From assembly GCF_000003815.2 (NCBI RefSeq), contig NC_049980.1, forward strand, positions 8,509,770-8,573,769: a stretch of 64,000 nucleotides of DNA. The letters run 5' to 3'. Below are positions 6,801 to 47,900 of the stretch, in pieces. Source of the stretch: Branchiostoma floridae. Taxonomy: Eukaryota > Chordata > Leptocardii > Amphioxiformes > Branchiostomatidae. The number at the start of each line of letters is the position of its first letter. The first letter of the stretch is position 1. The notes beneath the pieces were generated by a model. It was given only the letters and a program-made list of their open reading frames with translations, had not been told where the DNA came from and ran no database searches. The translations under genes were made by a program, and so were the position numbers.

Positions 6801-9800
6801 TTTTATTTATGTCATACCCACCTGAGAAAACCCGTTTTGATGCGATATGCGCCAGAAGTTGCACAAATTTGGTGCCCTCGAACAAAAAGTGTTGCAACAG
6901 TAATGTTTCAAAGACCGAATCAGGCATTTCGAAATTTCGATGGCGCCGCACTCGGCCCGCTCAAAACAGTTCGATTTATTCGAATGGAGCCCGTGTGATA
7001 TGCCGTTCGATCCTGTGCGATACCGAAGTTATGGCCCGGTCCAGAACACTCGTATCGAATGTTTTCGCGTCACAGGTATATGACATAAAACCCAGTACAT
7101 GCACCAGTGCAGGCTAGGTGCAGGTAGACAACAAAAATACCTTCACAGCTCCAGTTTTACCTGCACTAACCTGCATAATCATGCAGGTGGTATTTTGAGC
7201 CCTGTCTAGGTACTGTATTAGCTCTCTTTGACTTGTGCTTCGGAGTTGCTGGAGGTGTTTCTAGGAGAGCATGTTGAATCTGTGCTTACTCTCAATATAC
7301 AAAATGTACTGGGAGAAGGCCATGTAACGTTACATCTGCTTGTTGATTTCCCCTGAAAAAATCCTTAAGTGGTATGCCTCCTTGACAACCTCCAACAACA
7401 ATGATTATATCCAAAGAGCTTTCATCAAAGAACATAATATTATGAACATCAAATAGTTACACACTATTAGTACCTTAAATGTTAAAATCAGTCCTACATT
7501 TTTACTGATAGCTGGACCTTTTGCCTTTGGTTTGTCTAATTTGAAATTCAACTTTGACGCTAGCGCAGCGAGTTCTGTGGTTGAGTTGTTCCTTCAGAAA
7601 ATTCAGGTGGCTACAAATCCATATGTAATGCAAAACAAGCTCCCATCACGATATCAAGCTCATTTCAAGAAATAAGGATCAGAGAAAACTCACCATTTCA
7701 TGTCCACTGACTTCCCACACAGAGGAACCAATACCTTGACCTTCTGTCTTTTGCGTGTCATTTCTGCCTCATATTTCTTAAGGTACCTGCAGAGAATGCA
7801 CGTAACGTGTGAGATTATATTTGGATTGCAAAGAATATTCAAAAGCATAATAGCTGCCATAAAAAAAAATTAAAAAATTCTTTTTAACCCTAAAGCTACA
7901 AGAGTTTTAGCCCAGTACATGCTCTCATCAGTGCCATGGTTTGACAACTGACCTTCGAACTGAAGCCCGCAAATAAGGCTGACGACCCTCTTTATCAGGA
8001 ATAAGTTATAACAATTTTCTTAAAATCAGTTTCCACTTATGTTCAGGTATATTTATGTCATTATCTCATGACACTAGGCAGCAGCCATGGCAATGGTCTG
8101 ACCTCTGCTTGGATAGTACTAGCAATGATTATCTCTAGGCTCCAGACTGTACAAGGCGATCAACAACTGATCTTATTTCTGGACCACACTACCCTAGAGT
8201 GAAGATGTCATATTATTCTACAACACTGCTATGTTGCCCAATATTGCAAATTTGTACCATCAACGATTTGTTAAAATATTTTAGAAATCACCCAAAGGAT
8301 CTTGAGATATTGCTGCAGACTCACAGACACAGAGGGACAACTGCAATACCGCCATCCAACATCTTCCCAGAAATAACAAAGACAGGCTGAACGAAGTCTC
8401 ACACTCTTGAACCTTAAGACAGTTTTTACTTACGGGTTGATTTCAGTCTTATGGAAGCCAATCCGCCCTTCTGTCCACCGTGTGTCCCAGTCCTCAGGAG
8501 ACATACTAACGTTAGTAGTACTGATGCTTTTCTGCTGTACTGATGACTGTATAGTTAACTTTGGCACTGATGACAAAGACGTCTGGAGAGCACAGATCCG
8601 TCTGTGGGCATACAAAAATTCAATATGAATTATGATGCATTTGATCAAAATACCATCAAATTACTCAAGCCTTACCAAAGTGAGAAACTCAAACTTTCAA
8701 AGGCAGTCATTAATCATAATTAAGGCTTGATCGGATCAGCTGCATCATATCATATGGGGTACAACAAGTGGAAGCATACAACAGCCTGATAAACACACTC
8801 AGAAGCAAACTTAGCACACTCAAATCTAAAGGCTACACCATACAGATCACCTGGTGCCCGGGACACATGGGAATTCCTGGAAATGAAATTGCAGACAAAG
8901 AAGCTAAACTGGCAGCAGAGGAAGCAAGAAACTGCCAGAACTACACATCTTGGACAAAACAGCAAGCCATGAAACACATTGAAGCACAAGCGCACGAGAG
9001 ATGGAACAGAAGGACCAAGCTGAACACTAGAAGTGAACACATGCAGAAGATAGCCACCAACATGAAGAAGAAGGGACAAACACTTGGAAGAAGAAGCACA
9101 CAAGTCATCATCAACCAGCTAGTGAGTGGCCACACCAGACTCAACTCCTATCAAAACTGGATGAACCCTGAAATCTCACCTAGCTGCACTAACTGCGGTG
9201 CTGTGGAGACCACCAACCACTTCCTGTACCACTGCCCTCGCTATGAAAAGGAAAGACAACACATGCTGCTAGAAGTGGAGAACATATATGAGACATACAA
9301 CACAGCAGAGGACAGCAGAGACACGGACATCACCACGCTAGCTGGAATGAGAGAAGACCTTTCAGAAGGAATCAACAAACAGATGTACATAGCCTTCTCC
9401 CAGTACATTGAGAGTACACACCGTTTCGAAGTTCTCTCCTAGAAACTCCTCCAGCAACTCTCAAGCACAAGGAACCAAGAGTTAAAAACCAAGAGAGACT
9501 ATTGACTCAAAAGCGAACCATGTGTTACTCAGCACCAAGAGACCACGTCTAGCGAAATAATAGACGTTAAACGAGGACAACAACAACAACAACAATATCA
9601 TATCATATCATATCATATATATCATATCTTCTTCTTCTTTCCTTTAATACTGCTGAGCCCCTGTTACAGGGCCTACCCTTTACTAGCAGGGCGCATGGTG
9701 TTTAAATGTTTGTTAGTTCCAAGTGATAGAATTATGAAAAAGTTATGAACATATAGGAAAGATATATAAAATAGCATATATCCTATATACCCTATCATAT

Positions 9801-10307: not shown

Positions 10308-13300
10308 ATGGCTGCCAAAAGTGGGAAGAAATCTGTGCTTTTCGTCTGTCTTGGTAAGTTGTTAAATATCACAATTGCTTCAGTTTCACGTGAATGATTC
10401 AAGTCTCAAAATCAAATGTCAGACTCAGAAATCATCTTATCGTCATACGGCATTAAGTAAGAGGATTTTGATCAGGACATCAAAGACGCTAGGATACTCC
10501 AGTCAATAAGAAAGTTTGGGGCACTATTGCGAATGATCCTGTCAATAAAGATATTTGGGGCACAATTGACAGAATGTTCCTGTCAATAAGAATATTTGGG
10601 ACATTGTTGACAGGACGCTCTTATAATAATCTCATTAAATTTATGACACTTTATGATCCAGTCATCCCTAGCCCTGAGGATAATCCTGTCAATTAGACAT
10701 TTTTTTTGCACAATTGACATGATGTTCCTGGCATGGCAATTATGACAATACCATCCTCATATCATAAACATTACTGATAACGTTGGAGTTGTGTAGTGAT
10801 TGATGAAGAAAATTGTTAGAAAAGTAAGTCTATGAGCATAACAGTTCTATGTGTTCAAACAGGTAATATCTGCAGGTCACCGATAGCAGAGGCTGTTTTC
10901 ACCCACCTGGTGAGGGAGAAGGGTCAACTGGACCAGGTGAATATGCAAATTGCTGGATAGAATATGATTTGGTGTAGATATGTTAGACTTAGAGTCACAG
11001 TAGTTTTCTCCAAGCAGAGGTTGGATCGCAAGGATACTAGTAAGTAGTGGCTGGGATTTTTTACCAGCTAGCTCCCCGCACATCATGGGAATTTTGACAT
11101 GGAAATAAACCCATCACCTATATTTTCGTCATGAAAATGCAATTTGCACCAAAAACACATCACTTCTTACGCTTTTTAGCCATGCCAGTATCAAATGCCA
11201 CTCCGCAGCAGATTACGAGAAATTTGGACTCAAACACGGACCCTCGAGACCCTTTTGTCACATTTTTGTCGCGCACTATCTCGGACCCCTGTCGCGGCTT
11301 TTCATTTGACCTCATCTGTGATCTGTACCATGTTGGATTACAGCATACAGCTTATGTCTGTGTTAAGCACACCAGATTATCACTACTTAAACCATAGGCT
11401 ATAGGCCTCGGAATGATCGGCGAAATGGGGGCGAAATGCGGGTGCCGAACCCGAAGATTGGCGAAAGGCGGGCGCCGAAGGCGGGTTAGGGATAACTCGG
11501 CGCAAAGGATGACGGGAGCGCTTCCGGGTTGGAGGCTCGCGCCCATTGGCCCCCGCTATGGCTCGCGCCCATTGGCCCCCGCTATCTCAACAATAATTCC
11601 GAGGCCTATAGCCCGTGCTTAAACAATGACATGAGGAACTTTGTCCCATGTTTGTTCAATTCTGTACATGTGACAGTGGGAAATCAACAGTGCAGCAACA
11701 ATTGACATGCACGTAGGGAACAGAGCAGACCCAAGGACAAGGGCCTGTCTACAAAAGCATTCAGTGCCGTATGGCCACATCGTGCGGCAGGTACTTGTTT
11801 TATCCTACTCTTTCTAAACATACTAACCTGTGTGTTCTAACAGGTGTTTTATTAACTATGTTGTAGTGGACAGTAGACAGTGCAGCTACTTGCGACTGGA
11901 ATGTGGGGCTCCCACCAGATGAGAGGGGTCAGGCCTGCATGAGGAAGCATGGCGTTTATAAGGAACAGATTGCTAGACAGGTACTTGTACATGTGTAGTG
12001 CCCGGCTTGCAAATATTAAGGGTGGGTACCGGTACAGAAAATTCAGGTACAAGTATGGTCCAGAGTATCAGGTACAGGTATGGACCTGAACCAGGACCAA
12101 ATTATTTGTGGAAACTTTTTGCTACAAAGGATTCTGTTTGGTGAGGGTATCTGACGTCCACTAGTGTAGAAATGTAGTAAAAATGACCACACTACGAAAA
12201 ATATTTGTCTTGTTTTGTCTTGGCTAGTAACATTTTACTTAATTCGTGGACACATGTGCTTGCATGAAGAAATTTCAAGAAGAAATAAGAATGAATAAGA
12301 AAAAAAGAAAGAGATCATTCGAAGACCATTTTCTTGTAAATTATTATAACAAGAGAAATGTCCTTACTTTTCTTAAGCTAAGAAATAATTTCTCAAAAAG
12401 ACTTTTTCCCGTTAGAATTTTCAAGAAATGTAAGTCAAATATTCTTGGTATTCTTGTATGCAGACTGAAATTCTTGCCATTATTTAAGAAAGTACAAGAA
12501 TTTTTCTCTACGCCCTCTTGATTTTCTTATAGTAAGAAAAAAACAAGAACATCAAGATATAAAAACAAGTAGTTACTGTAACAAAAGTCTTGAATGTTCT
12601 TGTTTCACATATTAAGAAACATCGAGAAACTCTATTCTTGCTTTTTGGGGAATGTTCAAGAAAAAACAAGAATTTCGTTCTTACATTTCCTCAGGTATAC
12701 TGCTCAGAAAAACAAGAACATTCAAGATAATTTAAGTACAAGATAAAGTGCAAGGAATTACTGGAATAATAATCTTGAATGTTCTTGTCTTTTGTATCCA
12801 GAAACTTTGATAAACGCATTTTTTTTCGTAAGTGAAGAAAGTATTTCTCATATAACATTAGCCATGTTAGCGTTCACGAGTGTTCTAGAAATCTGGAGGA
12901 TTTGCAAAATCTATCATAATTCTAGGTAATTAAGAACTCAGGTACAAGAGTATGGTCCTTGACTTACTTGACTGAATACTAATAACAAAACAGGAAATTA
13001 CAGAACAAGCTTTGACTAGCATAAGACTCTTGAATGTTCGTGATTGTTGTTTTTATTCAAAATATCTAATAAAAACTAGCACATATAGAAACTTTTCCAT
13101 TGACCTTCTTGGCAGACACTGTTTATCATAATCCATGTGTCTATCAAGATGTAAAGAACAATTAGTTGGAACCAGCATAATTTTTGTCTATTTTCTCAAT
13201 ATCAGATCAGAGTTTAAGAAATTAATTCTATATTTTTCTGGTAATAAGACAACAATTTTGCTAAGGATCATGGGAAATTAATCCCATCATCCTTTGCTGC

Positions 13301-16300
13301 AAATTTCAAATTCTAGACAGTTACAGCTTGCATGCAAACTGCCTCTCCAGGTTTATTTGTCTGATGTGCATTAGATCTTACAAATACAGGGCACAGATAT
13401 GGTAGATTTCTTTAGGACACTTTCCTGTATCGCCTGGGACCCTGTTTACAATGTGGCCTTGCATTTCTAAGCTCCAAAGTGCAACCAAAGCCGAAGTCAA
13501 GCTTGGAACATTATCTATTCAGGTACGTCAGCCATCTTGGTTTTCAAAGTATTTTAATTTCACATTTCTTTGGTTGCATATGCATGATAAGGCGACCAGT
13601 AATTGCAGAATGTAGAAGTGAACACTTGCATGAATTCCTCCAAAACACTAAGACGTAAGTATGATGTTTTTAAGGAAGGAAAAGTATAGAGATGTTGATG
13701 TCCAAAATCCTTATGGGGGAGGGGGGCATTCATCAGGGAATTGCTTGTTCATAAACTGTCTGTGTTCTAGGCGTGGAAACCAGTTGGACCAAAGAGGATG
13801 CCCCCATCTCAACTTTGGAAAAGCTTTCAACAAGAACAAGTGACATGTATTATGATTATGATACCATCATCAACAACATTACAGCAGTAATGGTGCTGTT
13901 TTAGAAGGACAATAATTAAGTTATTAGTATGCTCAGTATCAGGAAAATGGATTTTTATAAGCAAGCATCATATATAGGGCTGGGTACCGGTACAGAAAAT
14001 TCAGGTCCAGGTCCAGAGGATCAGGTCCAGGTCCGGACCTGAACCTGGACCTGATTCATTATGACTCATATCAATGGTCCATTTCACTACAAAGAAATCT
14101 GTTTGGTGGAGTATTAGACTTACACCGGTGTTTTAAAATCCTACAACGCTAACTGCACCTGTACGATTGACTGTAAACCTTGGTAGAAATTACTATAAAC
14201 TCTACTCTACTTCACTCTTGTCATTTTCTTCCAACTGCAAGCGCCAAAACGTGTGAATGCCTGATCAAATAATATGTTAATTTTCTAATCGGTCCAACAT
14301 CCGGTCCACCTAATTTTTTCAGGTCCGGTTTTTCTGGACCAGTCCAATAAGAAAAACCGGTTTTTGTACCGGTACGCTGTACCGATACCCAGCCGTAATC
14401 ATATATAATCTAAATCTGTTGGTATCTGCAATAATGTTGAACATTGACCAGTTCATGATACAAGAACCTCAATCTTACTTTAAGAAATGGTTTCTATGTG
14501 ACTGTGTAGGTGTAAGAAATTCAGTCTTGAACTTATATTTAGCAAGATGTTAATACAAACACTTCAATATCAGCACAGCAAAGTAGTACCCTAGGTCACT
14601 AGGTGTACGAAATTTGGTCTTGGTGTAAGAGTATATTAATCTCAGATGTATAAGAGAATATCTTTAGGCAATAAGAAGTGTGCTTTTGATTTAAGAAAGT
14701 TACTCTTGTTGTAAGAACAATTAAGAAAATATTTCTAGCAATAAGAAGTGTGCTCTTGATGTAAGAAAGCTATTCTTGATATAAGAAATTTAATCTTGGT
14801 ATAAGAACACCAATCTTGAAAGTAAGAAAATATTTCTGGGAATAAGAATTGTGCTCTTGCTGTAAGAAAGTTACTCTTGCCGTAAGAAATTTAGTCTTGG
14901 TATAAGAACACCAATCTTGAAAGTAAGAATATATTACTAGCCAATAAGAATTGTTGTGTTTATGTAAGAAAGTTATTCTTAATACAAGAAATTTAATCTT
15001 GGTGTAAGAACACAAATCTTGAAAGTAAGAAAATATTTCTAGGGAATAAGAATTGTTGTCTTGATGTAAGAAAGTTATTCTTGTTATAAGAAATTTAATC
15101 TTGGTTTTAAGAATGCCAATCTTGAAAATAAGAAAATATTTCTAGGCAATTAGAATTGTGCACTTGTAGTAAGAAAGGTATTCTTGTTGTAAGAATAGCA
15201 GTCTTGGAAATAAGAAATGTATCTAGGCAATAAAGAATTTTACTCTTGATATGAGAAATTTATTCTTTTGTGTGAGAAAATCAATCTTGGAAGTAAGAAA
15301 ATATTTCTAGGCAATAAGAAGTGTGCTCTTGAGGTAAGAAATGTATTCTTGGTGTAAGAACACCAATTTTCAAAGTAAGAATTTTAATTCTTGGTGTGAG
15401 AACACCAATCTTGAAAGTAAGAATTTCAAAATAATTCTAGGCATCAAGAATTGTGCTCTTGAAGTAAGAAAGACAGTCTTGCTGTAAAAGCACCAATCTT
15501 CAAAGTAAGAAAATGTTTCTAGGCAAAAAGACTTTCTGATCTTCATGTGAGAAAAGGATTGTTGAACACAAGGCTTCAAATGACAATATATTAGTGAAAG
15601 AATATAGGCACAAGAACATTTATAAAAAAATCTTACTGTAAGACTGACATTCTAGTTAAACTTTATGAGATACCTGTAAGAAATATAGTCTTGCTTCAAG
15701 AAAATTCAGTAAGTAAAAAATTGCTTAATTTGTGGACAAATCTGTTTTCTTATAGTCCGGAAAAAAATCTTATATGAAGACAAAAATGTCTCTGTACAAG
15801 AAAAAACAAGAAAGAAAGAAAAGGCATTTTTGGTAGTGCATCAACTCTCCTTTACTTCACTCTTGTTATTTTCTTGTAAGCCCCAAAGTTGGTCCCAAAT
15901 CCGGTCCACTGATTTTTTTCAGGTCTGTTTTTTCTGGACTGCTCCAACAAGAAAAAACGTTTTTGTACCAGTAGCCACCCATAGCTTGCATCTATCATAT
16001 TCATAAGCTTGTTTGTTCTCAACCATTAGCAGACGTCATTTTTTCCTTTCAGCCATTCTGTAACACCTGCTGGAACTAAATGATACATCATGTCGCACCA
16101 AATAGCAGTTTGAATCTATACATGTAGATGTCAAGATCCAGTTGCTAGAGTAACTGCTATTTGGTGCATCTTGTTACCTGGATGTGTAGCCTTCAACGAC
16201 GTAATACACGTCACAGCTTACGGAATTGTATTGATGGGAAAAGTATATTATTGAAAGTAAATGGAAATAGTGAAAAACTCAAATGGGTTTGTTAGAGTGG

Positions 16301-17329
16301 GTGAGATGAACTGGTTTACATGTACATGTTCAAGTAAGTGTACTATACCTAAGGTTAGTGTATTGTTCATCTTTTCTGTTCATCATGAATATAACTTGTT
16401 GTGCATGCAGCCTTGGAACCATTCCCAGTATCTCTACAAAACTGGGAGTGCCCAGGTCATTAGCAAATAAATAAATAAATGTCCTGGCATTTTGCGTGGC
16501 TGGTTTCAATGACATCACAGTGCAATGTGATGAAATACTCACATACACATGAAGTAACAAGTTCATCATTGACATGTTATAAATATACATATACATACTA
16601 TACTTTCAGTTGCTGCATTTGACATGCATGTTTTTCTATGTGAAAGGTGACAGAAGAGGATTTCACCAAGTTTCAGTACATCCTTGGTATGGATCATAAC
16701 AACATCAGGTGAAACACTTTGAGCATTGAATGTGAAAGTTTTAAAAATAAAGAGAGTTCCAGATTCTATTCAATTCTTTTGTTGATATTAATGTTTATTT
16801 CAATTTTGCATTGTTATAAACATGTATTGTGTTCAATTCAAGAACACTGGTTGACAAGAATTTTATACCTATAATGTATAAGATTGACTAATAGATGTAG
16901 ATTTTTTTCCATCACTCAGGGTCTTGATTAACTTCATGAACATTGTTTGTAAAACATTTACTTATTTTTCTTCTGTAGCAACTTGAAAAACATGCTGCCT
17001 GCAGGCTCCACAGCAACAGTGAAGCTACTAGGCAGCTATGATCCCCAGGGGAAAGAGGTCATTGAAGACCCTTACTATGTAAGTATCACTTTATGTACAA
17101 TAAACTGTTATCTTCAAGTGTCAGTTTTAGGTGTTTATAGGATTTCTTATTAATATATATCATTCTTTTTCACCCTTTTGACAGTTACAATTTTTGATTA
17201 ACCATGTACCCTTTTTTCACACACATTAAGCTATTGAATGCAATATTTTTGCAGGGAGAAGACTCGGATTTTGAGCGAGTGTATCAGCAGTGTGTACGGT
17301 GCTGCACGGCTTTCCTGGAGACAGTGTAG
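10308..17329 (+). CDS. ACP1: Low-molecular-weight protein tyrosine phosphatase / acid phosphatase 1
   Basis: Cytosolic phosphatase that dephosphorylates phosphotyrosine and small acyl or aryl phosphates. Exons 10308-10353, 10863-10936, one of 11677-11790 or 11867-11980, then 16647-16708, 16979-17078, 17255-17329. The product has 156 residues (human 158). The P-loop VCLGNICRS carries the CX5R nucleophile motif, split by intron 1 inside CLG|N. The general-acid segment EDPYY ends exon 5. The C-terminus is [10 protein letters not shown]. All phases agree. Two adjacent 114-bp exons encode alternative versions of the variable segment (see separate entries). Intron 3 is 4.7 kb and holds the nested repeats at 12019-15983. 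The start exon is head to head with TPMT copy B. Confidence 0.96.
10490..10745. repeat. Tandem hairpin-forming CCTGTCAATAAGAA repeat
   Basis: Units of about 45 bp with TCCTGTCAATAAGAATATTT followed by ACAATTGACAG recur four or five times in ACP1 intron 1. Each unit can pair CTGTCAAT with ATTGACAG. A related array is at 24455-24640. Confidence 0.6.
11399..11611. mobile_element. MITE with CTATAGGCCTCGGAAT ends
   Basis: 16-bp terminal inverted repeats, CTATAGGCCTCGGAAT and ATTCCGAGGCCTATAG, bound a GC-rich core with an internal duplication of about 25 bp (GCTCGCGCCCATTGGCCCCC, twice). The flanks read CTTAAAC on both sides at short distance. In ACP1 intron 2, just upstream of the alternative exons. 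Confidence 0.8.
11677..11790 (+). CDS. ACP1: ACP1 alternative exon 3A
   Basis: A 114-bp exon between acceptor GTGACAG|TGGG and donor CGGCAG|GTACTT, phase 0 at both ends, fully open. It encodes 38 residues starting WEINSAAT and ending [12 protein letters not shown]. This is the same segment as exon 3B and as the human fast-form exon (WRVDSAAT...HGIPMSHVARQ). It is followed after a 76-bp intron by exon 3B. Using both would add 38 residues in the middle of the enzyme, so mutually exclusive use is expected. Confidence 0.9.
11867..11980 (+). CDS. ACP1: ACP1 alternative exon 3B
   Basis: A 114-bp exon, phase 0 at both ends, acceptor TTGTAG|TGGA, donor AGACAG|GTACTT. It encodes 38 residues starting [14 protein letters not shown] and ending EQIARQ. 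The DWNVG word matches the human slow-form exon (VSDWNVGRSPDPR), while 3A is more like the fast-form exon at its C-terminal end, so the gene order fast-like then slow-like may match human. Confidence 0.92.
13976..14397. mobile_element. GGTACCGG MITE, copy 2
   Basis: 422 bp, from AGGGCTGGGTACCGGTACAG to TACCGATACCCAGCCGTA, flanked by the 9-bp duplication ATCATATAT (13967-13975 and 14398-14406). The core carries reiterated CAGGTCCAGGTCCGG. It inserted into the foldback element after that element had inserted into copy 1 of the same family. Confidence 0.93.
14640..15560. repeat. 101-bp degenerate tandem repeat inside the foldback element
   Basis: Units recur at about 101 bp (TGCTCTTG at 14751 and 14852, then equivalents near 14953 and 15054). 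Each unit orders GTGCTCTTG, TAAGAAAG, ATTCTTG, TAAGAAATTTAATCTTGG, TAAGAACACCAATCTTG, AAAGTAAGAAAATATTTCTA. Later units are shorter and more diverged. Confidence 0.85.
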
Positions 17330-19009: not shown

Positions 19010-22000
19010 CTAAGGCCTTGGTAGCTGCACATAATTGGCAGGAAAGATCCCCTTCCTGCCCTTTAACCTCCCTTCCCACCAGTCATTTTGGGTGTGAGTT
19101 CTGGTCAGGACAGTGATCTTGTCTCCCTCTTGGAAGTACAGGTCACAGGGCAGCTCTCCCGCAAAGCTGAACAATGCTGTGACTTCAAATGGGCAGGCCA
19201 GTCTGTCCATGATGATGCTCTGTAGATCTGAAAAATAGTTGTGGTTAGCAAAACAGCAAACACTTACCACTAATTAATGCCCTAGAAAAAAAATTAAGTC
19301 AGGTGCCAATGAGTGTAACTACACTGTGTTCTCTGTCAGAATGTTGTGTTGAAACTACACCAGGCATTTCAACAATAACAAGATAGTCCCTTTGACACTT
19401 TTTCACTACACCTACATGCAAACATCTCATTTCCAGCAAAATCATATTGGCAAATGACATGAAAATCAGCAAATCACCACCAACCTTCTTCACTGGCTGT
19501 ACGCTCCTCCACCAAACTGGTACATCTCCTCGCTGACGTGAATTTGGACCTCGTTTTCCTGGACGGTTTCACATCTGCACAAAAGACTCGATAGTGAGTA
19601 GAAAACAAAAGCATAGTTTGTTTATAAGATGAAGATATGATAATGAATACTCTATTGATGTAGGTTGATTTAGTAAGCCAATTCAAATTTACAGTCTATA
19701 AAACTAGATTGATGCATAACACTATGATAATCAATACAAGCCTATTTGAAAGCATAAAATATTGTTTCACACACCTGAAGTGGAAGAATTCTTCAAGGAC
19801 TTGCTTCTGGAAGATCCAAAACTGAAACTCTAGGGAATCAGAAGAATCCATCAATCATACAAATTACCTAGGAAGGTAGGTACAAAGGATGTGAATCATG
19901 TTACAATTATAGAAGACCATCCAGGCAAATGATTAGCAGTGTTGACAGAATGCATGAACATAGCCAATACTGAGAGTTGCTAACATGAAAGACAATGAAA
20001 AAACACCTTTGGACGGTCAGCTTTTGTAGCTTTCTTCACAGCAGCCTTCTTGGCTGCCTCCACAAGGATCTTCTCTGCAGCTTCATAATGTCTGTGGAGG
20101 ATCTCATACAGAGGGTCCGCCAGTGATGGAGGGTGCACTGTCCCATTCAGGATCTCGTATGCCCGCACATCTCCGCCATAAAACCTGGACAACAGGTATT
20201 CAAACTTTTGTCATTTAAAAAAAAATAGTCACACATACACACAAACACTACCCAAAATATAACCTTCTTGCCGAAGGTAAAAAGAAACACATGAGAAGCA
20301 CTTACAATGTGATAGCAATCATAAAAGACAAGTTCATGCTCTTAAGGCTTCTTTTTTCAAGTCATGCCCATGATAGTTTAGTTTTAGTAGACAACAAATG
20401 CAATTCGGTAGTAACATCACCAAAATGCTGTGAGCCTTTGGATTATCCCACATTTTCTTATACTACCGGGTAGTAGTTGCGCTGCAGCCAAACGATGAGA
20501 TGAGATGAGAGTTGCAAGCAACAAAAACATTCAAAATTTGTTTTTAAACTTACTTTCTATTTGCATCTTTTCTTTCGATGATCCCAGTCCCTTCCAGAGA
20601 TATCCCAGCGAACAGACCTTTGGTTTTGCTGTAGGTGTAAATAGCTGATGGGCTTCTGACAGCAACATCTCCCTCCATATTCCTTCCAAGTGGCCCTGTT
20701 TTGTCAAATTATGTGATCTTTAGAACATGACAGAACATGATATATAATTTCTACGCTATCATAGTTCAAATTCAGAATACATGTAGTATGACAAAAGAGT
20801 AAATAATTTGAGAGTCACACACCTGCTGCAATGGTGAAGTTGCCACCCAATGTAAGGTTACCACCCTTAGAGAAAGCATCTACAGCTGACTGGGTATTCA
20901 GAATAATGACAAAGTCTGTGACCTGAAAGAAAACCAGATACATATATTGTGAAAAGCGTGTGGTTTTTCAATATGAACCTACTACATTTGTAGTACTAAA
21001 TTTAATGAAAGGTTGAGAGAGTAATGATGCATGATGCATGATGCTTACTTCAGCTCCAATTTCAAATCCACCTCCAAGTCCTGCAAGACCCACTGCAGAT
21101 GGTGCTGACCACCCTGTCAACAAAAATGTCCAACAGTTGCCATGGTAACCATAATTAGCATATTGGACAATCGTAGGTCAAGTTTTGTGGCAGAAATTGT
21201 TTTAAATATGTTTTTAAATGTAGTTTCAGTTTTAAATTACATGTCATTATACATGATGGTATTGACAAAACTTCACATTTTGATTGAAAATATCCTATTG
21301 CTGAACATTTCCGTATGGCACCCATGGAGACTACATAATAGGATATGAATACTATTTGTGTCCTACAGCAACTTACGAGACTCAGATATTCTGGCAATGA
21401 CAATGCCACTGCCTCCTCTTGCACTGACAAGGAACCCCGCCTTGAACACAGTCAGGACAGCAAGTCCACGGGCACGGGCCAGGATAGATACTGGGCAAAT
21501 ACAAACATCAACCAAGGAGTATCATAAGAAGGACAAAGGTGAAACGTCAGTTAACCCGATTAGAAAGTAACAACATAGCAAAAGAAGTCAAAGTTAGTAC
21601 ACATGCACCTCTTTTCTTGTATTCATAATTATTCATTATCAAAACAATGGGATTGAATACCAATAAAATTTACATCCATCAGATGTTCTGAAACCATGGT
21701 ATTAGACCCGGTACTAGTTACATGTGCCTTAAGTTTGTAATTAAGTGGTCTTTGTCCAAGCATGTTGTTTAGTGACACCCTTCCCTCTCCCTTAATGTTA
21801 ACATTGTAAGTTGCTAACCTGGTATGATCTTGTCTGGTCCAGTTTTTGCACTTGGTACTGTGAAGTCCCTCAAAATCTTGGCAGCCTTTTTAGCCTCAGA
21901 CTTCAGGCTATGTGGAACTGGAGTGTTCACCACTAGAAATTGGAAACATGTGCAATGCTTACAAGGCATTCTTTTTTCTTCTTCGGTAGCCAACGATAGC

Positions 22001-31400: not shown

Positions 31401-34400
31401 CCACATCTCAGCGTCGGGTACACTCCATGTACATGCTTGCAAGTTCTGTGCCAGGAATAGGCCGGAAGTGGACGCGGATCATCCAGCCAAGTTCTGCCCA
31501 TACAACAGAGACACCGGAGGGTACAGTAACCAGCCAGGGAACTCCAACAACTCCTGACTAGACTCGGCGCGCAGCACAGGTGTGATTTATCCGGCATCAA
31601 CCTTGACCGACAACACGAAACTGATTCAACGCCCACATGCCACTCTAAAGCCCTCACCAGACAAGATGGCGAGCACCCACGTCCCACATGCTGCTCTACA
31701 GCCGGCGAGCACCCACATCTCACATGCTGCTCGAAAGCCCTCATCAGACAAGACGGCGAGCTTCCACGTCCCACATGCCGCTCGAAAGCCCTCACCAGAC
31801 AAGATGGCGAGCACCCACGTCCCACATGCTGCTCAAAGGCCCTCACCAGACAAGACGGCGAGCACCCACGTCCCACATGCTGCTCGAAAGCCCTCACCAG
31901 ACAAGACGGCGAGCACCCACGTCCCACATACTGCTCGAAAGCCCTCACCAGACAAGAAGGCGAGCACCCACGTCCCACATGCTGCTCAAAAGCCCTCACC
32001 AGACAAGACGGCGAGCACCCACGTCCCACATGCCGCTCGAAAGCCCTCACCAGACAAGACGGCGAGCACCCACGTCCCACATGCTGCTCGAAAGCCCTCA
32101 CCAGACAAGACGGCGAGCATCCATGTAATAAGGCCTGCCCTAAAGCCTTCACCAAAAAAGACTTTGGACATCCTTGTCCAATGTCCAGTTACAACGCTCA
32201 CATTTGACAAGACGGCAACTCTTAGGGCTCCATGTACAGCCACAGGTCATCCACGGACAAGACGGGAAGCGGCTTTCCCCTTCGACCCAGGCGTCGCCCT
32301 CACAAACACAAGCGGCAGCGGGAGACCTGGCGTCGTTATGCCCTGTCTACGACCATTGGCAGAACACTAGGTCTAAGACCATTCAAGCCGACGAGTAAGC
32401 AGCTCGTCCCCACCATCGGAGTCTTCTTGGCTGCCTGCGGCCTGGCCTGTGACATCGTCTGTGGCGGAACTATGTACTTGAACCAGCTCATCAGACTCGA
32501 TTAAACATGTCACGCGCCAATACGTCTCCGAAGTGAGTGTGCCTGAACAATTATGGGCGTATGACGAGATGACGTCATACGGGGGAATTGTGGGCAAACC
32601 ACGTGATGAACACCGCGAGATCTTGCGAGAACCAGAGTAAGAACTCCAGATCTCGAACGAACTACCATCCACCGCCCAACAACGTCCTTGAACTTTCTAT
32701 TCCACCCGTTCGTTATCTTATCCCGTTTTTTAACCCACCACCTAGTTTAGGCTCAGCACCACAGTAGATACTAGTCAGTGTTTTAGCAAGTTATGTATGT
32801 CGATTATGTGTATGACCAGCACGTCCTACAACGTGCAGTCAGTGCCAGAAGTCGTTCTCATTTACAGTACCTTTAACTCCTTTAGGCCTCAGATAGGCGA
32901 GAGCACAACTGTATTCTACTTCAGGACTGTAGAGCGGTCACTTTTAAAGAGAGTTTATACGTTTTACGACAATTTACTGATCGTCTTATTGTTATTGTTA
33001 CATGCCTTCTTTGTAAGGAATACCTGTCTTGTATCCAGTTCATTTATATGCCTAGCGTCTCTAGGCTAGGCCTGTGACATCGTCTGTGGCGGAACTATGT
33101 ACTTGAACCAGCTCATCAGACTCGATTAAACATGTCACGCGCCAATACGTCTCCGAAGTGAGTGTGCCTGAACAATTTAAATTCTAAGATGCTCTACCCT
33201 AGGAAAACCAGACTCCTAAGAGGCTATGCGGAAAGGGTTACCGATCCCCGCCAAACGCGTGCCTGCACCGGCCCCACTATCCAGTTGGCCTCTCTAATCG
33301 ATAGCAAACCGTTCCCGTACTGGCTCAAATCAGCAAGCGATAGTGGGGGTCAGCTGGATCGTCAGGCGAGTGTAACTTGTGGGGACGCATGTGGTGCTGA
33401 ATCAGTCGTGAAGACTTCCCGTGCTGGCTCGAATCAGTCTGGTTTTCCCAGGGTACTAATTGGATTGCTTTACCTTACCAATACCTCTGCCCCCTGCAGA
33501 CTTGTACAGAGAGGTGATCCCACGTGAAGCCCCTCCCTCCTACAGAGGTCACTCCGTCAAGTACTCCTACAAGGTCACCATCGGCACACAGAGAGTCGGT
33601 GCCCCAACCAAACTGTTGAGAGTACCTTTCAGGGTTCTTGTAGTTTATGGTAAGCATGCTTTCATCATGTTCTTTTTCTAGGCCAAGGAGGTTATAGAGA
33701 TACTCATAGCTCTAGTATATGAACATGTTAAAAGCCCCCTCTGTCTACCTTTTGATATAACAACAAATGTAGCAAATATCTCTGCTGTTCAGTTCAGTTC
33801 AGTTCAGTTCATCCTCATATTCATAAGAGGTGCCACTAGTAATATCAGACCATGCATGAGCTGTAGCTGTAGCCCCATTATATTTTGAGTTTTTCTTTAA
33901 GTATAACATAGATCTACTATTATCTATTGACAAAAAATTGCAAAATTCCTTTTAAGCTATTGTAAACTTCTTATTTTGGAAGCCCAAAGTTCCCAGATGG
34001 TCTTTATATTGTCTGAACATATGTAAGAGTACAAGTCAAATCCATAGCAGGGCTCGAAATACTGGGTGCATGTGCACCCAGGTGCACCCAAAATTGGAGC
34101 TGTGCACCCAATTATTGTCTGTGGGTGCACAGGGTGCACCCAAATATTTTCTTGAGTTTATGTATGTAAAGATATCAAAGTGTACTAATATACATCATAT
34201 TCTTGACATCTAAGGGAATAGAAAGATAATAAAAATGTCTGTCATGGTACTTTTAGAATTTGATAGCATGTAACTATATTTTGTTATTAGGTTTTTCTGA
34301 CATTCTACTTGAATTCAAGTGGTGCACCCAAAAAATTTTTGGTGCACCTAATTTTTTAAGCTGGGTGCACCAGTGCACCTAATCCCAAAAATGAATTTCG

Positions 34401-44900: not shown

Positions 44901-47900
44901 AGGGTCTGGCTAGATTTTGACGTTTTTTACGAGCATTTTCTTTTAAACGTTTTTATCAGGCTTTCTATTTTGTCAGGTGTTGTTTCTGACCATCATAAAA
45001 ATGCCTTAAAAATTGTCAAAAAACAATCAAAACCTAACCTCTGCTTGGAGTGTAAGTGCAACAGGTCCTTGAAGCCTTTTTGTAGGTGTTTAAAATGTTA
45101 TTGATTAAGGGCTAGCGATAATTGGCATTGTTGCTTTTTCTGAGAAACCTGTCAAACATGTTGTTCTGGGTCCATGGAATTGGAGGTTGCAAGTGGTCTG
45201 CTAAAAGAATGGGGAATGCATGGTGAATAGGGCTGGGTACCGGTACAGAAAATTCAGGTCCAGGTCCGGTTCAGGTCCAAAGGATCAGGTCCAGGTCCGG
45301 ACCTGAACCTGGACCTGATTCAGTATGACTCATACCAATGGTCCATTTCACTAGACAGAAATCTGTCTGGTGGAGTATTAGACTTAAACTGGCGTTTTAA
45401 AATACTACAACGCTAACTGCACCTGTACGATTGACTGTAAACCTTGGTAGAAATTACTATAAACTCTACTCTACTTCACTCTTGTCATTTTCTTCCAACT
45501 GCAAGCGCCAAAACGTGTGAATGCCTGATAAAATGATATGTTAATTTTCTAATCGGTCCAACATCCGGTCCACCTATTTTTTTCAGGTCCGGTTTTTCTG
45601 GACTGGTCCAATAAGAAAAACCGGTTTTGTACCGGTACGCTGTACCGATACCCAGCCCTAATGGTGAATTGTGAAAATCCTAAGCTCAAACCAAGTCAAG
45701 TGTTGCGGTTTTGTCTAACCTGTGTAAGTGTGTTAGTCATATATGTTACAAGTGATTGTCTAGTAGTACTGTACGTAGACGGTAGAACTGGCAGGTGTCT
45801 ACGCCACATTTTGTGATGGCCACAAAAGATGCGGTCGCCGGATGTAGCCTTTCTTAGAAATACAGCCGTCGTGCCGGAGGATTGAGTTATGGGTATTGAT
45901 GTATAATGATGTTAGAGACCCTGATTGGATTCCAGTAGAGCCCAATTGTCTGTTGGATTGGGTCCAAATTGCTGATTGAGTGACAGATAGAATCTGTAGC
46001 ATATGGGTAGTGTTTGGCAACTCATGTACATATGTACTGTATCAATCTTACCAAGGTTGACATTGACAAAGCTTGAATGGCATAAACATAAAAGTTTCTA
46101 TGGCTGAGCTTGATCACTTTTTGTATGGACCAAATATGACATTATTCGCCTAAGGCCACAGATGTGACTGCCTGGATACGGTTTGTGTATGGAGTCACAA
46201 CATCGCGTGTTGTCAAAATAGTTGGATTAGATCCTGACCTTGTGTTGTTGATCTTTCTGGGTGTTTGGATGCCGTCCAGGACGTCAAGGTCACCCCGTCA
46301 AGGTCACCCCCGCTGTCTCTTTTAGAGTCAACTGTCATTAGCTGATTCATGCTTCTTTTCAAAATGACAGTTGTGTCCGAACACTTATCTCCGAGCAGAT
46401 GTGGAAAGGCAAAATTGTATTTTCAAGCTCATGGTTCCACAGAGGACCCTTCTAGAAGGGTCCCATGCAATGTACTATATGATGTAGAACCGAGAACGTT
46501 AAAAGTGCTATGATTTTGCCTTGCTACATCTCCTTGGACTAGGAGTTTATTCCACATGCTGGCGATACAGTTTTCCCACCAGACAAGTTTATGCAACCCT
46601 GGTTATTTTGTTTTTACAACACGTAGGGAAATACCTCGTAAGAATTATATTGCTTTCCCTTTTCTAAAGTGATTTTCCTACGTGCCGGATGTGCCGTCAG
46701 CATTGACTGAGTAGGTAAATGCAATTAAAGTAGGCTTTATGGTAAATGTTGGCACAGGTGCTTTTAGATTATGAAGAACTTGTGTGTATTGGTATATACC
46801 AGCTAGAGTTCATGGGCCCCTCTGTGAATACATAATGCGCACAGATCAAGTTGCACAGTGATTTATGTCCGGATGTGCATCTGTCTGATGTAGGGTTAAA
46901 AGGTAATCCATAGCTCACATTATGAATTTGAAAAATGGTCTGTTTGGCATGATAAGTATGTATTATACATGACACTTATAAGTAATACCATTGTATGTAT
47001 GTCCTTTGTACAAACAAGGAAAGAGTATGAAAAACAAAGCTTTATTGTAAATCATTACCAGATATCTCTGTGAGAAATATAGGCAATAGGAAATATAGGC
47101 AATTTCTCAATTTTGTTACAGTAAGAGGTTGAAGAAAACTACCTAACAAGAAGCATGTGTAACCAGTATGCAATTATTAGATTGTACAAGCAATAGAAGA
47201 AAGAAAAGAATGTGTTACATGTACTTACAAATATCTAAACTACAGAAAACTATTTTAAAAGCAGGTTGATGAGGTTTTACCCTAGATTTCTCGATGTTAA
47301 ATGCGCAGCTGTTCTGTATTGTAGTTACTTGCTTGGGTCAGTCCAGAGAAGTGTAACACCCTTCAAATCTGCCTGCAGCCTGTCCGTCAACAGGGAACTT
47401 TGGCCCGACCACCTTGTTTCTATGTATGGGCTGTGACGTCCACAGACACCCAGTCCACACCCAGGAATGTTGGGTGCCCACTCAGAAGGTCACGTGACCA
47501 TTACTAGACAGTAACAGTTGCCAGCACATGGTTCAACAGTGTACTTCCTGTCCCTGGAGTAGTCCGGCACAAGTTTTGATAATCCGAATAACCAGTGTCA
47601 ACTCAGTAAACCGGTTTCCACTGGGACGGCCGAGCGTCCGTGCCTGGAGTATTTCATGAAGGGCAAACAAGTAAGCTTCATAAGTTCATATTTTACTTGT
47701 AGTAATCCGTAGACAGTTAGTATAATATCTGTCAGTATTACTACTAACATTACTGGCCATAGTATTGGATACCCAACTTTGACATTGGGAAGGGTGGAAG
47801 TGACTCACGAAGAAGGGTTGAGCCATACACAAATCTGACTATGGTCTGAATAATGACTTGTGAAAGTTCTGATGATCGCATGGTTCATATCATAGTGAAG

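Follow-up and report, generated by a model that had tools for sequence, protein, structure and literature searches.

Two alternative versions of one protein segment can be encoded by tandem exons of a single gene or by separate genes. In human ACP1, the isoforms are reported to result from mutually exclusive use of exons 3 and 4 (excerpt of PMC3785452), the fast isoform having exon 3 excised and the slow isoform exon 4 (excerpts of PMC3239354 and PMC10604255). ACP1 is also listed in table 1 of a collection of 60 homologous-exon events, each of which occurs in one or more of five aquatic vertebrates, from a scan that covered vertebrates only (excerpt of PMC4465641), and 21 human homologous-exon events are reported to have invertebrate counterparts (excerpt of PMC9741552). 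In Drosophila, primo-1 and primo-2 have an annotated dicistronic transcript isoform (excerpt of PMC4528330). The passage from isoforms to separate genes is a known route elsewhere, as in nurf-1 (excerpt of PMC6752949). For OGDH, a limit of approximately 50 nt between the branch point and the 5' splice site has been described (excerpt of PMC7969005). A link between the primo genes and the ACP1 exon pair appeared in none of the titles and abstract openings searched, which covered few subscription papers and are weak evidence of novelty. Here, we describe an amphioxus locus for which the best overall explanation, and one we consider likely, is a single ACP1 gene with two alternatives of exon 3, probably used one at a time, that arose by a duplication probably preceding the protostome-deuterostome split.

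Results

The window, that is, the whole stretch of DNA that was analysed, comprises 64,000 nucleotides of Branchiostoma floridae contig NC_049980.1. Its sequence and open frames hold a complete plus-strand ACP1 (LMW-PTP) gene at 10308-17329. Exon 1 (10308-10353) contains the start codon and exon 2 (10863-10936) codes the remaining part of the P-loop. Two alternatives of exon 3 follow, 3a (11677-11790) and 3b (11867-11980), separated by a 76-nt intron (11791-11866); both code residues W39-Q76 (human numbering), and each is a 114-bp, phase 0, open frame of 38 residues with AG before and GT after it. The constant exons that flank the pair end at 10936 on the 5' side and begin at 16647 on the 3' side, where exon 4 (16647-16708, from the spliced gene model) is followed by exon 5 (16979-17078; SNLKN...LLGSYDPQ...EDPYY) and exon 6 (17255-17329), with a TAG stop at 17327-17329. 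On inspection of the sequence, every ACP1 intron is GT-AG. The spliced product is an uninterrupted 156 aa with either 3a or 3b, and the frame is also kept when both exons are joined (194 aa) or neither is included (118 aa). The two isoforms score 147.6 and 152.1 bits against Pfam LMWPc (cut-off 23.2), covering positions 1-144 of the 144 in the profile, and the protein carries a CLGNICRS P-loop and a DPYY loop, which we take to be LMW-PTP motifs. A preliminary description of this DNA had recognized an ACP1 gene with a tandem exon pair; that assignment holds, with a complete LMW-PTP from either exon, and its coordinates, lengths (114 bp each), 76-bp gap, phase 0 and residues for the pair proved exact.

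Across the 513-Mb assembly (431 contigs), the ACP1 protein has six exon matches, all of them within this gene, and no further locus emerged when exon 3a was searched together with its flanks up to E 1. A third copy of exon 3 was seen neither in the window nor among the scored candidates from the whole assembly. The SYLF domain of SH3YL1 has two matches in the assembly, both at window positions 20550-20925 on the minus strand (contig 8530319-8530694), where a domain search places SYLF-domain (SH3YL1-like) exons approximately 3 kb downstream of ACP1. A human 2p25.3 deletion of approximately 470 kb contains only FAM110C, SH3YL1, ACP1 and FAM150B (excerpt of PMC4359793). Given the single locus and the SH3YL1 neighbour, as in human, we take the amphioxus gene to be the ACP1 orthologue and not a stray LMW-PTP. 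The SH3YL1-like and ACP1 genes are convergent in the window; human SH3YL1 and ACP1 are presumably oriented head to head.

Several other features of the window were recorded. The first 94 residues of an ORF at 1683-2207 on the minus strand resemble TPMT (thiopurine methyltransferase; 24.3 bits, cut-off 26). A plus-strand ORF at 8720-9442 encodes an RNase H domain (29.9 bits against a cut-off of 25.8), and its tail looks by eye like a zinc knuckle; it is probably the end of a non-LTR retrotransposon. At approximately 876-1510 the listed frames read as a run of X, so this part of the window is N. A 45-nt imperfect inverted repeat (76%) at 11387-11623, 53 bp upstream of exon 3a, has a 26-nt tandem duplication lying mostly between its arms and looks like a small mobile element. 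The intron after exon 3b is full of degenerate AAGAA/TTCTTG repeats (12260-15800), and one stretch of it (14195-14269) has a second occurrence, with the same reading, at 45459-45533. The region 31530-32207 is repetitive and open in several frames on both strands.

Exons 3a and 3b are identical at 18/38 residues and 62/114 bases and have an 11-nt donor repeat, CAGGTACTTGT, in common. Each recovers the other in the window by tblastn at E 3.8e-8, with every other location at an E of at least 1.5, so their resemblance is not chance. Two of the solved chains are fly proteins: 7cuy, named LMW-PTP 1, which we take to be Drosophila Primo-1, and 7btg, presumably Drosophila Primo-2. Exon 3a alone is closest to 7cuy (E 6e-7), followed by human fast (about 4e-6), mouse fast (7.5e-5) and slow (3e-4 to 5e-4), with 7btg missing among its matches up to E 10. 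Exon 3b alone is closest to fast-type chains (1.4e-11 to 7e-10), followed by slow (2e-9 to 7e-6), 7btg (5e-6) and 7cuy (0.04). The whole isoforms cross over in the same way: 7cuy scores 147.6 bits with 3a and 131.2 with 3b, and 7btg 96 with 3a and 118.6 with 3b. In identities, Primo-1 matches 3a at 22/37 residues and 3b at 16/37, and Primo-2 matches 3a at 10/38 and 3b at 17/38. The flanking amphioxus protein is about equally distant from Primo-1 (33/76) and Primo-2 (33/73), so the cross-pattern is confined to the exon-3 segment. Among the 20 sites that distinguish 3a from 3b, Primo-1 matches 3a at 10 and 3b at 4 (two-sided p 0.18), Primo-2 at 2 and 9 (p 0.065), human fast at 3 and 9 (p 0.15) and vertebrate slow at 4 and 7 (p 0.55), no single comparison being significant. 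A search for relatives in viral contigs gave 157 pattern matches and no true relative.

We used 80 bacterial relatives as the reference for residue polarity. G59 is common to 3b, human and mouse fast and Primo-2 (7btg), M63 to 3b and fast, and L53 to 3b and Primo-2, each being found in 0/80 bacteria; R54 (1/80) and V74 (0/80) are common to 3a and Primo-1 (7cuy). The only rare states common to 3a and slow are W39, A45 and C62, all three of which also occur in 3b and fast. Of the 16 sites that discriminate fast from slow, 5 are fast-like in 3a and 8 in 3b, and 3 are slow-like in each exon. The preliminary description had tied the downstream exon to the slow exon through DWNVG. W49 is the usual state (68/80 bacteria) and N50 (2/80) is common to 3b, Primo-2 and slow, so DWNVG does not mark 3b as slow; judged by these states, it is a retained feature. 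As a whole, too, the downstream exon has more residues in common with fast (21/38 human, 24/38 mouse) than with slow (19/38), and both G59 and M63 tie it to fast. The upstream exon, which had been called fast-like, has 15/38 residues in common with human fast, 18/38 with mouse fast and 16/38 with slow, compared with 22/37 for Primo-1, and its HIVRQ end is common to Primo-1, with no special tie to fast.

Measured from its 5' splice site, the 76-nt intron has branch-point-like adenines at 36, 50 and 65 nt (the best placed of five yTnAy matches) and an internal AG ending at 53. The candidates at 36 and 50 nt are at or under the limit of approximately 50 nt described for OGDH, and the one at 65 nt lies beyond it. 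Folding of 11640-12020 gives no sign of a structural switch, since 32/100 shuffles fold equally well (z -0.42). A repeat search found 18 inverted repeat pairs in 10937-12600, of which one (11729-11751 with 11974-11996; 23 nt, 78%) connects exon 3a with the 3b donor and, in two others, the 3a donor is paired with repeats of the following intron; pairs as short and imperfect as these can be due to chance.

Maximum-likelihood trees of the exon (38 sites) were made with 16 bacteria in one and 4 in the other, and with the protostomes represented by two proteins of one fly. Both gave the same grouping of exons, (3a, Primo-1) and ((3b, Primo-2), vertebrate fast), with slow beside the second group. 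As a constraint, the groups of the best tree have AU p 0.89, followed by vertebrate fast and slow as sisters (0.45), slow joined to 3a and Primo-1 (0.33, at a cost of 2.2-2.6 log units), the fly pair as sisters (0.17), and fast with 3b and slow with 3a, with the fly genes outside both groups (0.105). The preliminary description had looked to such a tree for one fast-like and one slow-like clade: in the best tree 3a and 3b are not sisters and a fast-type clade includes 3b, but 3a groups with Primo-1 and slow lies beside the fast clade. Its pairing of the downstream exon with slow and the upstream exon with fast is disfavoured, with a borderline AU p of 0.065 and an observed likelihood gap reached in 0/36 simulations. 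The simulated gap also reached the observed one in 0/36 for the fly pair as sisters, where all simulated gaps were 0.00, suggesting a stiff null, and in 3/36 for slow with 3a and Primo-1. The two tests differ in strictness, AU being much weaker than simulation, given only 38 sites, and simulation being liberal if the model is wrong.

We also counted cross-pairing matches (22 vs 16 and 17 vs 10), a post hoc statistic that was picked after the data had been seen. It was equalled in 0/2000 simulations under sister exons, a chordate-only origin or sister fly genes, in 1/2000 under double independent duplication and in 252/2000 under vertebrate sisters. A companion statistic on fast/slow pairing separated none of its nulls (425, 391, 874 and 1158 of 2000 for sister exons, double independent duplication, chordate-only origin and sister fly genes, respectively). 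In a tree of the flanking protein, where the question was whether the two primo genes remain sisters once exon 3 is left aside, none of five constraints was rejected by AU, and the best tree failed even to unite human and amphioxus.

Discussion

A common origin of the fast/slow-type exon pair is well supported by the residues and trees, and the duplication is probably older than the protostome-deuterostome split. In favour of a duplication in amphioxus only, with an independent one in vertebrates, 3a and 3b share 18/38 residues and the donor repeat, AU keeps them as sisters (p 0.13), and convergent tandem exons are documented in many families (excerpt of PMC9741552). However, 3a is nearer to Primo-1 (22/37) than to 3b (18/38), the sister arrangement costs 11-13 likelihood units, its observed gap of 11.2 was reached in 0/40 simulations (largest 3.6), and independent duplication in both lineages has AU p 0.044. 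We regard such convergence as very improbable, and the preliminary description, which had proposed a common and not an amphioxus-only origin, is supported on this point. It had also suggested that the duplication may predate the split of amphioxus and vertebrates; the pair is older than that split, and from the exon trees its age is probably greater still. A pair only as old as the chordates, in which chance or convergence would account for the 3a/Primo-1 and 3b/Primo-2 resemblances, seems unlikely to us. The exon is short, AU allows this origin (p 0.12), and a margin like that of 3a over 3b in matches to Primo-1, taken singly, occurs in 59/2000 simulations, but the two margins of the cross-pairing together never do, and the shared states R54, V74, L53 and G59 are rare among the bacteria. 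The simulated gap reached the observed 10.2 in 0/40, yet the largest, 7.1, is not far under it. We therefore lean, with some reserve, towards a duplication of bilaterian age, with both types kept in one gene in amphioxus, placed in two partly co-transcribed genes in the fly and kept or remade as fast and slow in vertebrates.

Vertebrate slow may come from the upstream type, which the published human exon order favours and the residues do not. The excision of exon 3 in fast and of exon 4 in slow (excerpts cited above) implies the human order slow, then fast. In amphioxus the Primo-1-type exon (3a) comes first and the fast-type exon (3b) second, so the order fits 3a as the slow counterpart, the opposite of the pairing first proposed; by order only, 3a is a candidate for this role. 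For 3b, descent with fast is indicated by G59 and M63, the nearest chains and the maximum-likelihood clade, with weak AU support against the alternatives. For 3a, descent with slow has 16/38 identities and the 3/36 and AU p 0.33 given above, and 3a itself groups with Primo-1. It is possible, though we doubt it, that slow is a later copy of a fast-type exon that replaced the original partner in vertebrates. Slow has W49 and N50 in common with 3b and Primo-2, agrees with 3b more often than with 3a at the differing sites (7 vs 4) and sits beside the fast clade, and AU keeps the stronger form, in which vertebrate fast and slow are sisters (p 0.45). Set against this, the observed gap of 4.0 for that form was reached in 0/36 simulations (largest 2.6), the copy would have had to lose G59, Q60 and M63, and the published order of slow before fast (same excerpts) agrees with simple descent; the same mixture could also come from gene conversion between adjacent exons.

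Amphioxus would have two alternatives of exon 3, in tandem, in frame and of the same length, and most likely splice them in singly. We infer mutually exclusive inclusion of 3a and 3b, since a product with both exons would carry a core segment twice; as the 194-aa product is in frame, decay would not remove such a transcript. The short intron may enforce the exclusive choice. A reading in which a single exon is truly used and its partner is either a decaying copy or a rare cassette is suggested by the unusual N42, M49 and S67 of 3a and by the lack of His72 in 3b, but the frames and splice sites of both are intact and the 22/37 identity of 3a to a fly protein would need long purifying selection, and we give this reading little credence. 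On the two-exon reading, the choice is predicted to swap residues 39-76, including 49 and 50 at the active-site mouth, and to give two enzymes with different pockets, Met49/His50 with 3a and Trp49/Asn50 with 3b; 3a also has Asn42 instead of Asp. Exon choice should then tune the binding of substrate or effector, with the catalytic core left unchanged.

If the bilaterian reading is true, one ancient choice at the active-site rim has been written sometimes into splicing and sometimes into duplicate genes. With 3a belonging to the Primo-1 type and 3b to the vertebrate-fast/Primo-2 type, the two exon types would sit in two separate LMW-PTP genes in Drosophila, implying conversion between alternative exons and separate genes. 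This would provide a dated example of two protein versions that can be housed interchangeably in alternative exons or in paralogous genes, and the two fly phosphatases would be counterparts of the alternative ACP1 isoforms. W49/N50 would then seem not to mark slow descent, so that isoforms of different animals should be compared over the entire exon.

The closest known system is vertebrate ACP1 fast/slow (IF1/IF2), which has the same gene, the same residues W39-Q76, tandem exons of equal length and the same SH3YL1 neighbour as amphioxus, and whose fast type includes 3b. It differs in that 3a does not group with vertebrate slow in the best tree, and in that the fast-specific Y49/E50 is missing from the amphioxus pair (M49/H50 and W49/N50). 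Exclusivity is described for human ACP1 (excerpt of PMC3785452), whereas for amphioxus we infer it. In Drosophila, the exon-3 segments of primo-1 and primo-2 match amphioxus 3a and 3b, respectively. OGDH exons 4a/4b resemble the amphioxus pair in their short intervening intron with branch-point candidates within approximately 50 nt; the distant branch points of OGDH have been demonstrated (excerpt of PMC7969005), whereas those of amphioxus ACP1 are a hint from sequence.
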